Assembly: GCA_938073845.1 (NCBI GenBank)
Contig: CALJEO010000108.1
Location: 1 to 17,093, forward strand
Direction: 5' to 3'
Source of the DNA: an uncultured archaeon
GTDB lineage: Archaea; Korarchaeota; Korarchaeia; Korarchaeales; Korarchaeaceae
Length of the DNA: 17,093 bases
The notes below the pieces were generated by a model. The model was not told the origin of the DNA, searched no databases, and was given only the letters and a program-made list of their open reading frames with translations. Each line of letters starts with the position of its first letter. Within the stretch, counting starts at the first letter, position 1. A program made the position numbers and the translations under genes. Of this stretch, positions 870 to 15,144 are shown piece by piece.

Positions 870-1262
870 ATGACCAGGCTGGACCCCTTGGCTGATGCGA
901 TGAGCGCCCTCACGAACGCCTCGGCCGTTGGGAAGAGGGAGGTCGTCGTGAACATAGCCTCGAAGCTCATAGGGAAGGTCCTGAGGGTCCTGAAGGAGGA
1001 GGGCTACATAGAAGACTTCGAGTACGTGGATGACGGGAGGTTCGGGAAGTACGTGGTCAAACTGAATGGTAGGATAAATAAGGCCGGAGCGATAAAACCC
1101 AGGTTCCCGGTCAAGGCCAATGAGTTCATGAGATGGGAGAAGATATACCTGCCAGCTGAGAACGTTGGGGTGATCGTGGTCTCGACGAACCAGGGCGTGA
1201 TGACGCACAGGGAGGCGAAGGAGAGGAGGATAGGGGGGGTCCTGATAGCATACTGCTACTGA
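870..1262 (+). CDS. rps8: 30S ribosomal protein S8 (uS8)
   Basis: A 130-residue protein of standard archaeal length that binds the central domain of 16S rRNA. The N-terminus [13 protein letters not shown] and the C-terminal block [20 protein letters not shown] plus GVLIAY are diagnostic; the latter is the S8 rRNA-binding signature. ATG 870 is preceded by GAGGTGGTG. The stop at 1260-1262 abuts the ribosome binding site of L6. Confidence 0.96.
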
Positions 1263-1272
1263 GGTGATCTGC

Positions 1273-1776
1273 ATGAGGTACCCCAATGTGATGACGTCAG
1301 CCATGGAGTTGAGCTTACCCATACCAGCTAACGTCAGGATCTCGGCTTCCGGAAGTAGGATAAGGGTTGAGGGACCTAAGGGGGTTTTGGAGAGGGAGTT
1401 CCACGGGGAGATGGTCGAGCTCTCAGTGGAAGGTGATGTCGTGAGGGTGAGGACCTTCGGTAGGAGGAAGTTCAACAGGGCCTACTTGGGTACCGTGGCC
1501 GCTCACATAAGGAACATGATCAAGGGGGTTACGGAGGGCTTCAGAAAGGAGATGGTGATAGTATACGCTCACTTCCCGATGAAGGTAGAGGTGGATGCTA
1601 AGAGGAAGCTCGTCAAGATATCCAACTTCCTGGGCGAGAAGGCTGCTAGGTATGCTAAGATAGTGGGGGACGTCGAGGTGAGGGTCGAGGGTGATAGGAT
1701 ATACATAGAGGGGATATCTAAGGAGGAAGGATCCCAGGGTCTTCATGGACGGTATATACGTGGTGAGGTGATATGA
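1273..1776 (+). CDS. rpl6: 50S ribosomal protein L6 (uL6) with disrupted C-terminus
   Basis: The N-terminal ~145 residues are normal L6, including the RIRVEGPKGVLEREF strand, the HIRNMIKGVTEGF segment, and FPMKVEVD...ISNFLGEKAARYAKI of domain 2. L6 lies at the base of the L7/L12 stalk. After GISKEE (1711-1728) the frame breaks from the family. Archaeal L6 continues with a conserved QTAANIE-type helix, then a RVF.DGIY tail. Here the helix is missing, and the tail reads perfectly in the next frame as RRKDPRVFMDGIYVVR, stopping at TGA 1769-1771. The frame continued from the start gives a nonsense tail ending at 1776. ATG 1273 is chosen because GGTGA lies five bases upstream; a GTG at 1264 is in frame but inside that site. 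Either a real deletion or an assembly or sequencing fault; see findings. Confidence 0.85.
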   Translation: MRYPNVMTSAMELSLPIPANVRISASGSRIRVEGPKGVLEREFHGEMVELSVEGDVVRVRTFGRRKFNRAYLGTVAAHIRNMIKGVTEGFRKEMVIVYAHFPMKVEVDAKRKLVKISNFLGEKAARYAKIVGDVEVRVEGDRIYIEGISKEEGSQGLHGRYIRGEVI

Positions 1777-2141
1777 GCGCCGGTCGGAGGAAGATGCTTA
1801 GGTTGAAGAAGAGGAAGCCCAGGTTCCTGAACCTAGCCCTCCATCGGAAGCTGGGGACTGTGAGGAGCTGGAGGAGACCTAGGGGCATCGATAATAAGCA
1901 GAGACTGAAGCTCAAGAGCAGGCCGAAGCAACCCAACATAGGATACAAGAACCCAGAGGAGATCAGGGGGTTGCACCCCTCGGGCAGGAAGCCCGTCGTG
2001 GTCCACAACCCGGAGGAGCTCAGGAGCCTTGCTGAGGGGAAGGAGGACATCATAGTTTACATAGCCCATACTGTGGGGGAGAGGAAGAGGAGCTTGATCA
2101 GGGAGGAAGCCTTTAAGCTCGGGATGAAGTTAGCGAATTGA
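1773..2141 (+). CDS. rpl32e: 50S ribosomal protein L32e
   Basis: A 122-residue basic protein, close to the usual ~125-135. Typical blocks are KKRKPRFLN, WRRPRGIDNKQRLKLK, PNIGYKNPEEIRGLHPSG, and a C-terminal domain VVHNPEEL ending in KLGMKLAN. L32e is specific to Archaea and Eukarya and binds 23S rRNA. ATG 1773 overlaps the L6 reading-frame end (ATGA). If L6 is read in its canonical C-terminal frame, its stop at 1769-1771 lies inside the GGTGA upstream of this gene, as at several other junctions here. Ten bases separate it from L19e. Confidence 0.95.
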   Translation: MSAGRRKMLRLKKRKPRFLNLALHRKLGTVRSWRRPRGIDNKQRLKLKSRPKQPNIGYKNPEEIRGLHPSGRKPVVVHNPEELRSLAEGKEDIIVYIAHTVGERKRSLIREEAFKLGMKLAN

Positions 2142-6245: not shown

Positions 6246-6749
6246 ATGGATCTAAACGCGATCCTTTTCCCACCTGGCTCGATACTGTTCCTGACACTGC
6301 TCGCCCTTTCAATAAGCCTGGCGATCAACCTGATAAACAGGAGGACCATCGACTACGGGAGGATGAGGGAGCTTCAGAAGATAGTCAAGGAGTACACGGA
6401 ACTTCAGAGGGAGCTTCTCAGGAACCCAGATGATAAGAGGTTGAAGAAGAAGCTCGATAAGATGAAGCCCCAGTTCGATGCCGCTAGGGGGGAGATCAGC
6501 AGGATGAACCTCAGACCCATGCTCTACACGACCCTACCGATAATAGTGATCTTCTGGTTGCTCGGGAGCTTCTACTCGGACATCCCCGTCATGAACCTGC
6601 CCTTCCCAATTCCCTGGATCCTGGACTACTTTCATGGAAACACGGGCCTATCGAACCAGACCTTAGGGTACTTAGGCTACTATGTGGTGGTCTCCTTCCT
6701 CCTCTCAGCGATATTCCAGAGGCTGCTCGGTACGTCGCCGTCCCAGTAG
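6246..6749 (+). CDS. DUF106 / EMC3-like (Oxa1 superfamily) membrane insertase
   Basis: A 167-residue membrane protein with the DUF106 pattern: a hydrophobic N-terminal helix (about 10-30), a charged coiled-coil hairpin (about 38-85, LQKIVKEYTELQRELL and LKKKLDKMKPQFD), and two more membrane helices (about 92-110 and 138-160). DUF106 proteins are the archaeal branch of the YidC/Oxa1/Get1/EMC3 superfamily, which helps insert membrane proteins. Position immediately behind secY, four bases after its stop, agrees with a role at the translocon. Many archaea carry an adenylate kinase gene nearby; none is present here. The downstream T-rich run suggests the unit ends here. Confidence 0.88.
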   Translation: MDLNAILFPPGSILFLTLLALSISLAINLINRRTIDYGRMRELQKIVKEYTELQRELLRNPDDKRLKKKLDKMKPQFDAARGEISRMNLRPMLYTTLPIIVIFWLLGSFYSDIPVMNLPFPIPWILDYFHGNTGLSNQTLGYLGYYVVVSFLLSAIFQRLLGTSPSQ

Positions 6750-10413: not shown

Positions 10414-11340
10414 GTGAGGAAGTCGACCTTGGCCGCTGAGGTTAACAGCGCGATCTCCCCGATCGTCGAATGGTATAGAGGAGCTGGGAGCATCAGGTCG
10501 ATAAAGAGAGGGCTTGATAACAGATCCTTCATAGTAGATCTCTCAGGAAGGAAGGAAATGAGGATACTCGCTGTAATTTACGATCCATCTACAGATGAGG
10601 ACATTCAAGAATTCGTTGAGTCACTTACTGATTCCTACAGGAGGGCCAGGATAGGATTCGATAGGCTGGATCTCTGGGTCCCCTCCCCCTTCTACCGAAG
10701 GGCCCAGGCCTTGATGGAGGAAGCCGGGAGGGGATGGGTGTCAAAAGTGATCCTGAGACCCCTAAAAGCCCCAGTCGATACTGAGGGTGAGGGGGCTGAA
10801 GATATGAGGGGGGCCATCAGATCTAAGGATGAGGGCCCCTTCGTCACAAGGGTTCCCGAGCCCGGCAAGAGGGTAAGCGAGGAGATGAACCTCCTAATAC
10901 GTGAGGTGGGAAGGGAGATAGGCGAGGGTGTGGCGAGAAGTCTGCAGGATTCTCTCAAGAGCATTCTATCCTCAATCGATATCAGGAGGAGCGATCCCGA
11001 GCTCATAGTGAAGATATATGAGCTGGAGAAGAGAGTGGAGCTTCTAGAATCTTTCATAAGACTGCTCGGTAACTATGGGGTCGGTAGCATACCTCAGGTC
11101 CATAGAGAGGTCCCTCCGGTACCTCAGGTCCATAGAGAGGTCCCTCCGGTTCAGGAGCGGCCTCAGGAGATAGCGAAGGATCACCAGAGGGTTGAGAGGG
11201 TAGCGATGGATGTGGTTAGGAGCGAGGAGATCGGCGAATCGAATCTCTCGGCTGATGATATCCTGGCTGAGATACTTAATAACCCATGGGTCAGCATCCT
11301 GAGGAGGAAAGGTGGTGAGGTTGAGGGTGAGGGTAGTTGA
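10414..11340 (+). CDS. Unknown 308-aa protein between rps11 and rpoD
   Basis: I do not recognise this protein. Residues about 1-118 look globular with alternating strands and helices (MRILAVIYDP, IQEFVESLTDSYRRARIGFD, LDLWVPSPFYRRAQALMEE, VSKVILRPL). About 119-155 is a charged linker. About 155-220 is helical and probably coiled coil (NLLIREVGREIGEGVARSL; LIVKIYELEKRVELLESF). Residues 227-246 are two exact copies of PQVHREVPPV. A charged region follows, ending in an isolated hydrophobic motif, DDILAEILNNPWVSILRRKG. There is no signal peptide or membrane helix. GTG 10414 lies at the expected transcription start of the TATA box. The 3' end overlaps rpoD by up to 29 bases, so the two are probably co-expressed. 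A role linked to RNA polymerase or the ribosome is only an inference from position. Confidence 0.85.
   Translation: MRKSTLAAEVNSAISPIVEWYRGAGSIRSIKRGLDNRSFIVDLSGRKEMRILAVIYDPSTDEDIQEFVESLTDSYRRARIGFDRLDLWVPSPFYRRAQALMEEAGRGWVSKVILRPLKAPVDTEGEGAEDMRGAIRSKDEGPFVTRVPEPGKRVSEEMNLLIREVGREIGEGVARSLQDSLKSILSSIDIRRSDPELIVKIYELEKRVELLESFIRLLGNYGVGSIPQVHREVPPVPQVHREVPPVQERPQEIAKDHQRVERVAMDVVRSEEIGESNLSADDILAEILNNPWVSILRRKGGEVEGEGS
11091..11150 (+). repeat. Perfect 2 x 30-bp tandem repeat within the 308-aa gene
   Basis: Bases 11091-11120 and 11121-11150 are identical. The unit length of ten codons keeps the frame, and each copy encodes PQVHREVPPV. Exact identity at third positions suggests a recent duplication. 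Confidence 0.97.
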
Positions 11341-12346: not shown

Positions 12347-13516
12347 TCATTTCTGCCTCTTGAAGAACACGACGTAGAGGAAGTACCCAATGGCCGCGAG
12401 TAGTACCAGGATCCCCAAGGCTGTCACTGCGAGGAGGGAGGGATCATTTGAGAGGGGACTGACGTTCTCCAGGGAGAGGGACCTACCGAGGATGGTCCTC
12501 CAGGGCTCAGGTATTTGAGGTGCGACGATCGGGAGATTAGCTAGGAAGAACGGGTACTGACTGAACATATTGAGGTACTCGCCGCTCAGTATAGTTAGCG
12601 CAGCGGATATTGTTGCTAGTAGGGCGAGGTTGAACCGCTCAGAAACGGACTTCCCTCCCAGTAAGGTCAGCCTGAGTATCGCGTATATCTGAACCACTAT
12701 GAGGACCAGCTTGACCGTGAACAACCAGCTTAAGTCAAGACCCCCTTGCGCCCCGCTTACGCTCCAGCCGAGGGACCCGAATATGTTGTTGAACTTCATC
12801 GGTGTCGAGAGCAGGGACATGGCATACCAAGGACCCAGGAGTAGCATTAGAAACATTGATACGATCGCTATGTTTAAGCTGAGCGAGTAGAGGGACCTCT
12901 CCTCAACGGAATCCCCCTTCATCAAGCTGAAAGCAGCTATCGTCGCTATGAATAGGGAGCCGAATGTCAGAGCTCCTAGAATGCTCTTTAGGTAGAGTGG
13001 AGCGAATGTGGGGTTCATTAATGCCTCGAAGGTATCTATGTAAGGCTTACCATCGAACTTAAGCCCTACGGGTGTATTGAGGAATGAGAAGACGAGCCTG
13101 AAGCCTAGGGGTATAGTGTAGGACGTCAGGGCTAGCAGAACCCCGGAAGCGAAGTGATAACTCCTCGGAAAGCTCTCCCAGCCGTAGTAGTAGAGGACTA
13201 TCGATAGGAAATGCAGTAGTATCGATAGTATGGCTATGGCGAAGGGAACCAGTGTGATGTTGCCCGCCAAGCCGACGAACTCTGGGTAAAAGCTGAGGAG
13301 GAAAACTGTGAAGGCGGTTCCCATCACACCAGCTAAAGCGTAGGTGGCAGCGTAAACCCTGAATATGCGCTTAGCTAACTCATCTAGCTTCGCGTTACCC
13401 GAGAAATCGGCCCTCCTCTTCAGGAGTGGAACTATCGTCGAGAGTGAGATGCCCAGGTTGACGGCCACTATGTGGATGCCGAACACCAAGGCTAGGTAGT
13501 AGACCTGAGGGATCAT
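12347..13516 (-). CDS. Cytochrome bd-type oxidase second subunit, CydA-like (CydA')
   Basis: A 389-residue membrane protein with about nine hydrophobic helices. In this position one expects CydB, but the sequence follows the neighbouring CydA. Between GT (66-67) and GW (112-113) it aligns without gaps over 46 residues with CydA 79-124, sharing both prolines, AG and GW. PLYLKSILGAL (173-183) aligns with CydA PVYLGSIFHAL (283-293), and the PW at 338-339 with CydA 488-489. The functional residues are gone: CydA Glu106 and Glu113 become Ala95 and His102, the heme ligand His291 becomes Gly181, and there is no quinol-binding Q-loop. This fits the CydA' subunit known from archaeal CydAA' oxidases. 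ATG 13516 lies two bases after the cydA stop, behind GGGGAGGTGTGA; a longer frame to 13558 overlaps cydA and is less likely. Confidence 0.85.
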   Translation of the reverse strand: MIPQVYYLALVFGIHIVAVNLGISLSTIVPLLKRRADFSGNAKLDELAKRIFRVYAATYALAGVMGTAFTVFLLSFYPEFVGLAGNITLVPFAIAILSILLHFLSIVLYYYGWESFPRSYHFASGVLLALTSYTIPLGFRLVFSFLNTPVGLKFDGKPYIDTFEALMNPTFAPLYLKSILGALTFGSLFIATIAAFSLMKGDSVEERSLYSLSLNIAIVSMFLMLLLGPWYAMSLLSTPMKFNNIFGSLGWSVSGAQGGLDLSWLFTVKLVLIVVQIYAILRLTLLGGKSVSERFNLALLATISAALTILSGEYLNMFSQYPFFLANLPIVAPQIPEPWRTILGRSLSLENVSPLSNDPSLLAVTALGILVLLAAIGYFLYVVFFKRQK

Positions 13517-13518
13517 GC

Positions 13519-15144
13519 TCACACCTCCCCAAGAGAGGGCTTGTAAAGAAGCCTCCAAACAGCTAGGATGAGGGCTAAAGCTACGGAGATAATTATCAAG
13601 GCAATTAGAGCATAGGAGAGAGGGTCTCCGGGGTTAGCTGTATGGGCAACATCCACCGTCATGATCCCATATATCGACCAGGGCTTCCTCCCCATCTCCC
13701 TGACAGCCCAGCCAAGGAAGCTGATTAGCTGAGCGGCTATTGGAGTTAGTACGTTTATCTTGAGGAGTATCGTCGAAATTGAGCCCATCTTAATTGCAAG
13801 TATCGCATAAATCAGAGCGTAGAATCCTAGAAGTAAGCTAAGTCCCGTTTTGGAGTAATAGAGGTAATGCAGGATGAGGGGAGGTCTACAATCGGTTATG
13901 GCAGGCTTGCCATCCAGCACACAGTATCCCTTATCTATGGAGTCATATTCGGGTAGTTTGGCATCAAAGCTGCCGTAAATTATGAATGACATCAGCCTCT
14001 CAATGCCCAAAGACCTAGATAGACTAAATATACTGTTACTCGTTCCCTCCATAGCAGCTAACTTCTCCGGGTTACTTCTCGCTATCTCAACTCCAATTAG
14101 ATGCCCGAAGACCAGGCCCTGTACTGCGATTGTGATCAGCGCCAGGACGATGCCGAACCTCAGGCCCGCCAGGTAGTAGCCCTTTTTCCCCTCGTTCCTG
14201 CCCTTAAGCAGGAGGAGCGAGTAAGCCCCGACCATCGTGAAGGCAGTTACCGTTACAGCGGACCCTAGGGCGTGGAATATGCTGCCCAAGTAGACCGGAG
14301 AGAGGAAGGTCACCATAGTGTAACCGACGCTCCTCACGGTGTTGGTAACTATGATGTCGACTACGTCCTTCACTAGGAGACCCTTGAGACCCTCAAGGGC
14401 CTCGTTCCTTATCACCAAGGATAGCACGCTTTCGCCAACCTTCACGTTCCCCCAGGACTCGTATATGAGTCTCGAAACTATCTTGGAAGGTAGCAGCACC
14501 GAAACACCGTTCTCTCCACTACCGACTACCTCCATACCGAGTGAGGTGAGTTTATCTACCTCAAGTACATTCACTACATCATTCGGGACCACCAAGAGGA
14601 CCTTTGGGAATCCCTGATCGTACTTCCACCCGCTTGCCGGGTCGTAGGCCGCCACTATCCCGGTCGGAGCCACCATGTAGCTATTCACGCTCATTATCAA
14701 TGCTCCTGAGAACCAGGCTCCGAATAGGGCTAGCAGGGAGAGCAAGATCTTAGCCTTGATCCCTATCTTGTTCCATCCGAAGATCAGGAGATATATGAAG
14801 GTTATCTCTATCAGGAACGCGAATATCTCGGCGTAGAGTGGGAAGAATATGTACCTACCCGCGGCCTCAAGGATGTTAGGCCATATTACCACTAATCCGA
14901 ACTCACTGAGCGTGCCTGCTGCCGCACCAACCGCGAATACTATCCCAAGAGCTTTAGCCATTGTCCTAGCCATTTCGTGCCACCTCTCATCCTTACTCCT
15001 AGCGTAGAGCAGTAATGCTACCATTATCACGAGGGGAAGTCCCAGGACGTACTGCAGTATCGCCCAGTGAAGCTCGATTCCTATTATGGAGAGTATCCTA
15101 TCGAGCGCTGCAGGGTAACTTAACCACTGGGATAGAAGGTCCAT
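13519..15144 (-). CDS. cydA: Cytochrome bd-type quinol oxidase subunit I (CydA)
   Basis: A 541-residue heme-bearing subunit that oxidises quinol and reduces oxygen. Landmarks relative to E. coli numbering: His26 matches H19 (same nine-residue spacing to the LGL glycine); Glu113 matches E107 (same spacing to the GW at 123-124); His291 is the best match for H186; GWAVREMGRKPW (478-489) matches GW..E.GRQPW, with Glu483 as the E445 heme ligand; and SNPEKLAAMEG (357-367) is the Q-loop QP.K.AA.E motif. Two oddities: about 137 residues separate helix 4 (ending near 154) from His291, roughly 100 more than usual, and no Met equivalent to M393 is evident in HYLYYSKTGLSLLLGF. ATG 15144 follows GGGAGGTGATCT. 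It is co-transcribed with the CydA' gene. It probably supports microaerobic respiration or oxygen removal. Confidence 0.9.
   Translation of the reverse strand: MDLLSQWLSYPAALDRILSIIGIELHWAILQYVLGLPLVIMVALLLYARSKDERWHEMARTMAKALGIVFAVGAAAGTLSEFGLVVIWPNILEAAGRYIFFPLYAEIFAFLIEITFIYLLIFGWNKIGIKAKILLSLLALFGAWFSGALIMSVNSYMVAPTGIVAAYDPASGWKYDQGFPKVLLVVPNDVVNVLEVDKLTSLGMEVVGSGENGVSVLLPSKIVSRLIYESWGNVKVGESVLSLVIRNEALEGLKGLLVKDVVDIIVTNTVRSVGYTMVTFLSPVYLGSIFHALGSAVTVTAFTMVGAYSLLLLKGRNEGKKGYYLAGLRFGIVLALITIAVQGLVFGHLIGVEIARSNPEKLAAMEGTSNSIFSLSRSLGIERLMSFIIYGSFDAKLPEYDSIDKGYCVLDGKPAITDCRPPLILHYLYYSKTGLSLLLGFYALIYAILAIKMGSISTILLKINVLTPIAAQLISFLGWAVREMGRKPWSIYGIMTVDVAHTANPGDPLSYALIALIIISVALALILAVWRLLYKPSLGEV

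Follow-up and report, generated by a model that had tools for sequence, protein, structure and literature searches.

The stretch of DNA analysed here (the window) spans the 17,093 bases of contig C108 in full; the contig belongs to the draft genome G000. This draft holds 945,919 bases in 156 contigs, is 63.73% complete and 0.24% contaminated, and leaves roughly one third of the genome unrecovered; 54 of the 59 other contigs that were sampled are shorter than 10 kb. The window carries rpl6, the gene for ribosomal protein uL6, between rps8 and rpl32e (Table 1), the names of the neighbours being our own reading unless backed by a family match. Comparisons were made with the genomes of the same genus (n = 16) and of the phylum (n = 29), the source genome being counted in both sets; one of the genus genomes consists of a single contig, 1,590,757 bases long. 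The gene row of the window is collinear with that of genome G011, with 26/26 ORF matches in the same order, and a chimeric contig was rejected on this basis.

Table 1. Coordinates of rpl6, its junction and its neighbours in the window
Feature	Position	Strand	Remarks
rpl6 (uL6), frame 0	1273..1776	+	167 aa from ATG 1273; aberrant past GISKEE; TGA 1774-1776
Junction, about 1726/1727	1720..1730	+	50 bases of 15/15 same-genus relatives missing in the window
Canonical uL6 C-terminal ending RRKDPRVFMDGIYVVR and TGA	1721..1771	+	+1 frame
Out-of-frame nonsense tail GSQGLHGRYIRGEVI of the frame-0 product, and stop	1729..1776	+	
rpl32e (name by reading)	1773..2141	+	intact; start overlaps the rpl6 frame-0 stop (ATGA)
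rps8 (name by reading)	870..1262	+	intact; upstream neighbour of rpl6

Residues 2-152 of the rpl6 product are a normal uL6, with 85% identity to the two nearest members of the genus. As the original prediction had described, frame 0 turns to nonsense after GISKEE (GSQGLHGRYIRGEVI, ending at a TGA within the start of rpl32e) and RRKDPRVFMDGIYVVR-TGA lies in the +1 frame; the canonical ending KDPRVFMDGIYVVR and its stop are intact at 1727-1771, one base out of frame. Frame 0 is without the QTAANIRLATKI helix. When single deletions of 40-59 bases were tried against each same-genus relative, a loss of exactly 50 bases at about 1726/1727 gave the best fit with 15/15 of them, the position relative to L005 being loose by a few bases (tied placement at 446). 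The claim that an out-of-frame deletion of about 50 bases removed a conserved helix was thereby borne out, and alignment with the L6 of close relatives, put forward with it as a check, gave an intact helix and 50 extra bases in each of the 15. The missing part of the protein is VGQTAANIRLATKI and its neighbours; the C-terminal QTAANI helix, absent in frame from the window, is present in all 15 (as QTTANI in one). With an intact relative as query, rpl6 was matched in two pieces (query residues 1-154 and 164-181 of 181), so the likeness is not due to chance.

Conservation of the uL6 C-terminus was examined in the genus, the phylum and a wider genome collection. Within the genus, rpl6 was intact in the 15 other genomes. 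Across the phylum, uL6 was matched in 28 of 29 genomes (the exception, G017, is 78% complete), and the 27 matches besides the window's own reached query residue 179-181. Helix and tail were also in frame at 80/80 loci from a scan of a genome collection (70 by motif, 10 by eye); these are the best 80 of 370 confirmed stretches and some come from the genus or phylum genomes above, and because the scan query stopped before the lesion, intact tails were not favoured among them. No other archaeal uL6 examined is without the helix segment, and none of the relatives examined has the 50-base loss. A short form shared by relatives would, according to the original prediction, have argued for a lineage-specific L6; it occurs in 0/15 genus relatives and 0/27 matched phylum genomes. 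The invariant columns in 16 aligned uL6 sequences include Q154, T155, A157, N158, D169, R171, F173, D175 and G176; in a second set of 16 sequences, Q154 and N158 were only nearly invariant. uL6 was a single-locus gene in each of the 28 matched phylum genomes, the only second match being the split half of the window's gene, and plasmids gave 12 weak and uninformative matches, all below 60% identity.

The window's product scored 152.0 bits against the TIGR03653 (uL6_arch) profile, for which the cut-off is 185.4 and the intact relative L005 reached 210.2, and 157.8 against NF004037 (cut-off 184; intact relative 219.7). The alignment to TIGR03653 breaks off at position 142 of a 170-position profile, and PF00347 was matched twice above its cut-off, with the second copy covering positions 1-56 of 80. 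The product is like the archaeal uL6 family (NCBIfam TIGR03653/NF004037, Pfam PF00347) in residues 2-152 and in its G011-like gene row, but unlike it in falling below both equivalog cut-offs, which the intact relative passes. In the predicted model of the intact relative L034 (mean pLDDT 86.3, pTM 0.79), the missing part forms the helix 149-162. In the model of the window's product (mean pLDDT 77.2, pTM 0.68), a helix at 150-155 is left and the nonsense tail has a mean pLDDT of 55 (residues 151-160) and 52 (residues 161-167).

The sequences at both breakpoints were then read from the relatives. Recombination or slippage between two AGGAGGA copies had been proposed as the cause of the deletion. 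The left copy is present in relatives, but the right copy was found in 0/15, and the bases shared exactly at both breakpoints number 1 to 5 rather than 7-8: five in L005 (GAGGA, 50 bases apart), two in L004, L006, L007 and L014, and one in the other ten genus relatives. Of all possible 50-base deletions in the L005 gene, about 1.5% would share at least 5 bases; in L004 and L007 none would. Direct-repeat slippage was thus rejected, although a longer match, not visible from the relatives, may have existed in the window's own ancestor. DNA hairpins around the lost stretch were weak (z of -0.50, -1.89 and -0.11 for three pieces from two relatives), and 8 of 200 shuffles of the second piece folded as well as the original.

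The age of the lesion was assessed from the part of the gene that it had put out of frame. Over the 45 bases at 1727-1771, the window differs from its four nearest relatives, L004, L005, L006 and L007, at 2, 2, 3 and 5 positions, respectively, and none of these differences alters the protein of the lost frame, a stop-for-stop exchange being one of the synonymous changes. The out-of-frame tail has not decayed, so the deletion is either of very recent date or absent from the cells; the power of this test is low, as a recent real deletion looks the same.

To learn whether faults are common in the assembly, 52 readable stretches of G000 (329,157 bases, window included) were surveyed against ORFs from 800 kb of G011. 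No inner N run was present in these stretches and there is thus no direct trace of scaffolding. The survey flagged 24 of 213 matched ORFs in G000 and 19 of 104 in genome G010; an earlier and smaller survey at a laxer identity limit had given 55 and 77 matches. Eight flags from G000 and seven from G010, viewed residue by residue, were mostly over-long start choices or antisense ORFs, and pairs of neighbouring paralogues, which give two-frame flags, were set aside from their coordinates and identities. Eighteen missing-end cases were tested for the missing part in another frame, and among the 3'-end cases only rpl6 was positive (83 vs 29). After inspection, two clear lesions were left in the 213 matches from G000, rpl6 and a second frameshift in the C78 gene (L247, 5117-5748), read as a metallo-hydrolase, in which 1 base has been lost near codon 174 with respect to G011. 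A further G000 case (R108019, L228), with two overlapping frames, was taken, short of proof, for a wrong-frame ORF. G010 gave no clear lesion in 104 matches; two of its 5'-end cases, R231021 (L188) and R744972 (L189), have an N-terminal part that scores in another frame against G011, and these may reflect either a frameshift in G010 or G011 or a wrong start in G011. Simulated deletions were flagged in 201/205 (50 bases), 205/205 (51 bases) and 199/205 (1 base) trials, and 22/205 were flagged without any change. With so few clear lesions in the sample, the G000 assembly does not look faulty overall, and this speaks against an artefact.

Combined, these results make it probable that the contig misreports the gene of the population through a consensus fault, be it a short-overlap join, a chimeric molecule or a minor variant in a fragmentary bin, and that the uL6 made by living cells is most likely an ordinary one, QTAANI helix and VVR ending included. 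The consensus would skip 50 bases at one spot of an otherwise normal rpl6: either two contig ends were fused across a short overlap during assembly or scaffolding, or a chimeric or minor-variant molecule supplied the consensus. We infer the fault itself, thin coverage at this spot and the step responsible. The reading is favoured because the bin is fragmentary and the lost part conserved, and we weighed these points above the cleanness of the draft. In its favour, uL6 is intact at all genus, matched phylum and scan loci and invariant columns are among those lost or shifted; the lost frame is undecayed; no long repeat that could have caused a natural deletion is present in the relatives; and the bin has at least one further frameshift, the 1-base loss in C78. 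Against it stand the lack of an inner N run, the scarcity of other lesions and the collinearity with G011. Moreover, a graph assembler normally needs a molecule that carries the join, and not just a few shared bases. Judged from the contig, the case resembles known consensus and assembly faults of metagenome-assembled genomes in being a single lesion in a near-universal gene of a fragmentary bin, followed by undecayed sequence; it is unlike them in the absence of inner N runs and the few other lesions. The original prediction had listed a rare lesion, a mixed population and an assembly fault as possible causes, and these are the right ones to weigh; its statement that rpl6 has lost a helix describes the contig sequence but probably not the organism.

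A genuine loss of the 50 bases, of very recent date and carried by the sequenced strain or a fraction of its population, is possible but clearly less likely than a consensus fault. The cells would then make a uL6 without its C-terminal helix and with wrong last residues, and would survive with a fitness cost, like rplF truncation mutants of bacteria. The ATG of rpl32e at 1773 overlaps the frame-0 TGA of rpl6 at 1774-1776, and translation would reach this start so that the rest of the operon would still be made. The fairly clean state of the sampled assembly also speaks for a real deletion, as do viable truncations and frameshifts of the uL6 C-terminus in bacteria. Excerpted reports describe FusE mutants of Staphylococcus aureus that carry rplF truncations and frameshifts, with doubling times more than 2-fold longer (PMC12493156; PMC3352095), and an excerpt of another states that several bacteria become resistant to aminoglycosides through C-terminally truncated uL6 and that defects of assembly and growth often accompany rplF changes (PMC12572303). 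By analogy, as bacteria survive truncation of the uL6 C-terminus, the archaeal lesion, if real, need not be lethal. In these excerpts, the uL6 C-terminus is likewise removed by deletion or frameshift, but they concern laboratory-selected or drug-resistant bacterial mutants, whereas here the organism is an uncultured archaeon under no known selection and the lesion is known from a contig sequence alone. A real deletion is further disfavoured by its absence from every other archaeal uL6 examined, by the invariant residues among those lost and by the less confident predicted fold of the short product (mean pLDDT 77.2 vs 86.3 for the intact relative). Among the papers listed for L6 together with frameshifts and archaea, none deals with an archaeal uL6 lesion, judged by title and abstract opening.

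That the lineage truly lives with a helix-less uL6, its GTPase-associated centre working without the helix or being compensated for it, appears very doubtful. According to excerpts of a study in yeast, uL6 bridges the sarcin-ricin loop and uL11, its depletion stops or slows growth with most depleted cells viable for days, and losing both uL6 genes is lethal (PMC6678285).

It is highly improbable that the lesion is real and that a further, intact copy of the uL6 gene, located in the unrecovered part of the genome, masks it. A draft only 63.73% complete leaves room for such a gene, but each of the 28 matched phylum genomes has a single uL6 locus, and the helix-coding pattern, with up to one mismatch, was found nowhere else in G000. 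The search for a second rpl6 suggested in the original prediction, made in the draft by family and by relative query, found none.

A functional short archaeal uL6 is unlikely in general, and the form in which a +1 shift near AAGGAGGA rejoins the canonical ending and skips the helix is the least credible of the readings considered. It draws on the ending being intact one base out of frame and on the Shine-Dalgarno-like AAGGAGGA at the junction, at which a helpful frameshift had been suggested; however, the motif recurs within four other, intact reading frames, neither a slippery sequence nor a stop codon placed to force a shift was seen at the rpl6 junction, the helix would still be absent after the shift, and such a form is absent from all relatives examined. 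In the window, AAGGAGGA occurs five times, against 1.84 expected (5 of 200 shuffles reached five), at plus-strand positions 993, 1720, 2040, 2449 and 3320, and reads in frame as Lys-Glu-Glu in four copies and Lys-Glu-Asp in one. Programmed +1 frameshifting was rejected, as nothing but this common motif spoke for it.

If the consensus is at fault, the case is a caution: through one faulty join, a universal marker protein in a metagenome bin can appear truncated and score under the curated cut-offs for naming. A real deletion would be the natural equivalent, in an archaeon, of the bacterial C-terminal truncations of uL6, and would put to the test the extent to which translational GTPases rely on this part of the protein.

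Elsewhere in the window, an EMC3/TMCO1-like membrane protein (PF01956) is encoded at 6246-6746 on the plus strand, directly 3' of a gene read as secY. A 308-aa protein encoded at 10414-11337, also on the plus strand, has no Pfam family match at the limit used and shows 63% identity to its G011 counterpart, compared to 85-99% for the flanking neighbours. Two adjacent proteins encoded on the minus strand, at 12350-13558 and 13522-15144, both match cytochrome bd oxidase subunit I (PF01654), a pair that we take to resemble the CydA-A' pair described in archaea. One relative of cytochrome bd subunit I, at G012:C3:127061-128677, has a single in-frame TGA and, judging from this reading frame, isolated lesions may also be present in further drafts of the genus. 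Relatives of the larger protein are present in 16 of the 28 other phylum genomes and fall into two groups, one with 74-80% identity (G009-G012, together with G022 of another genus) and the other with 45-50%.
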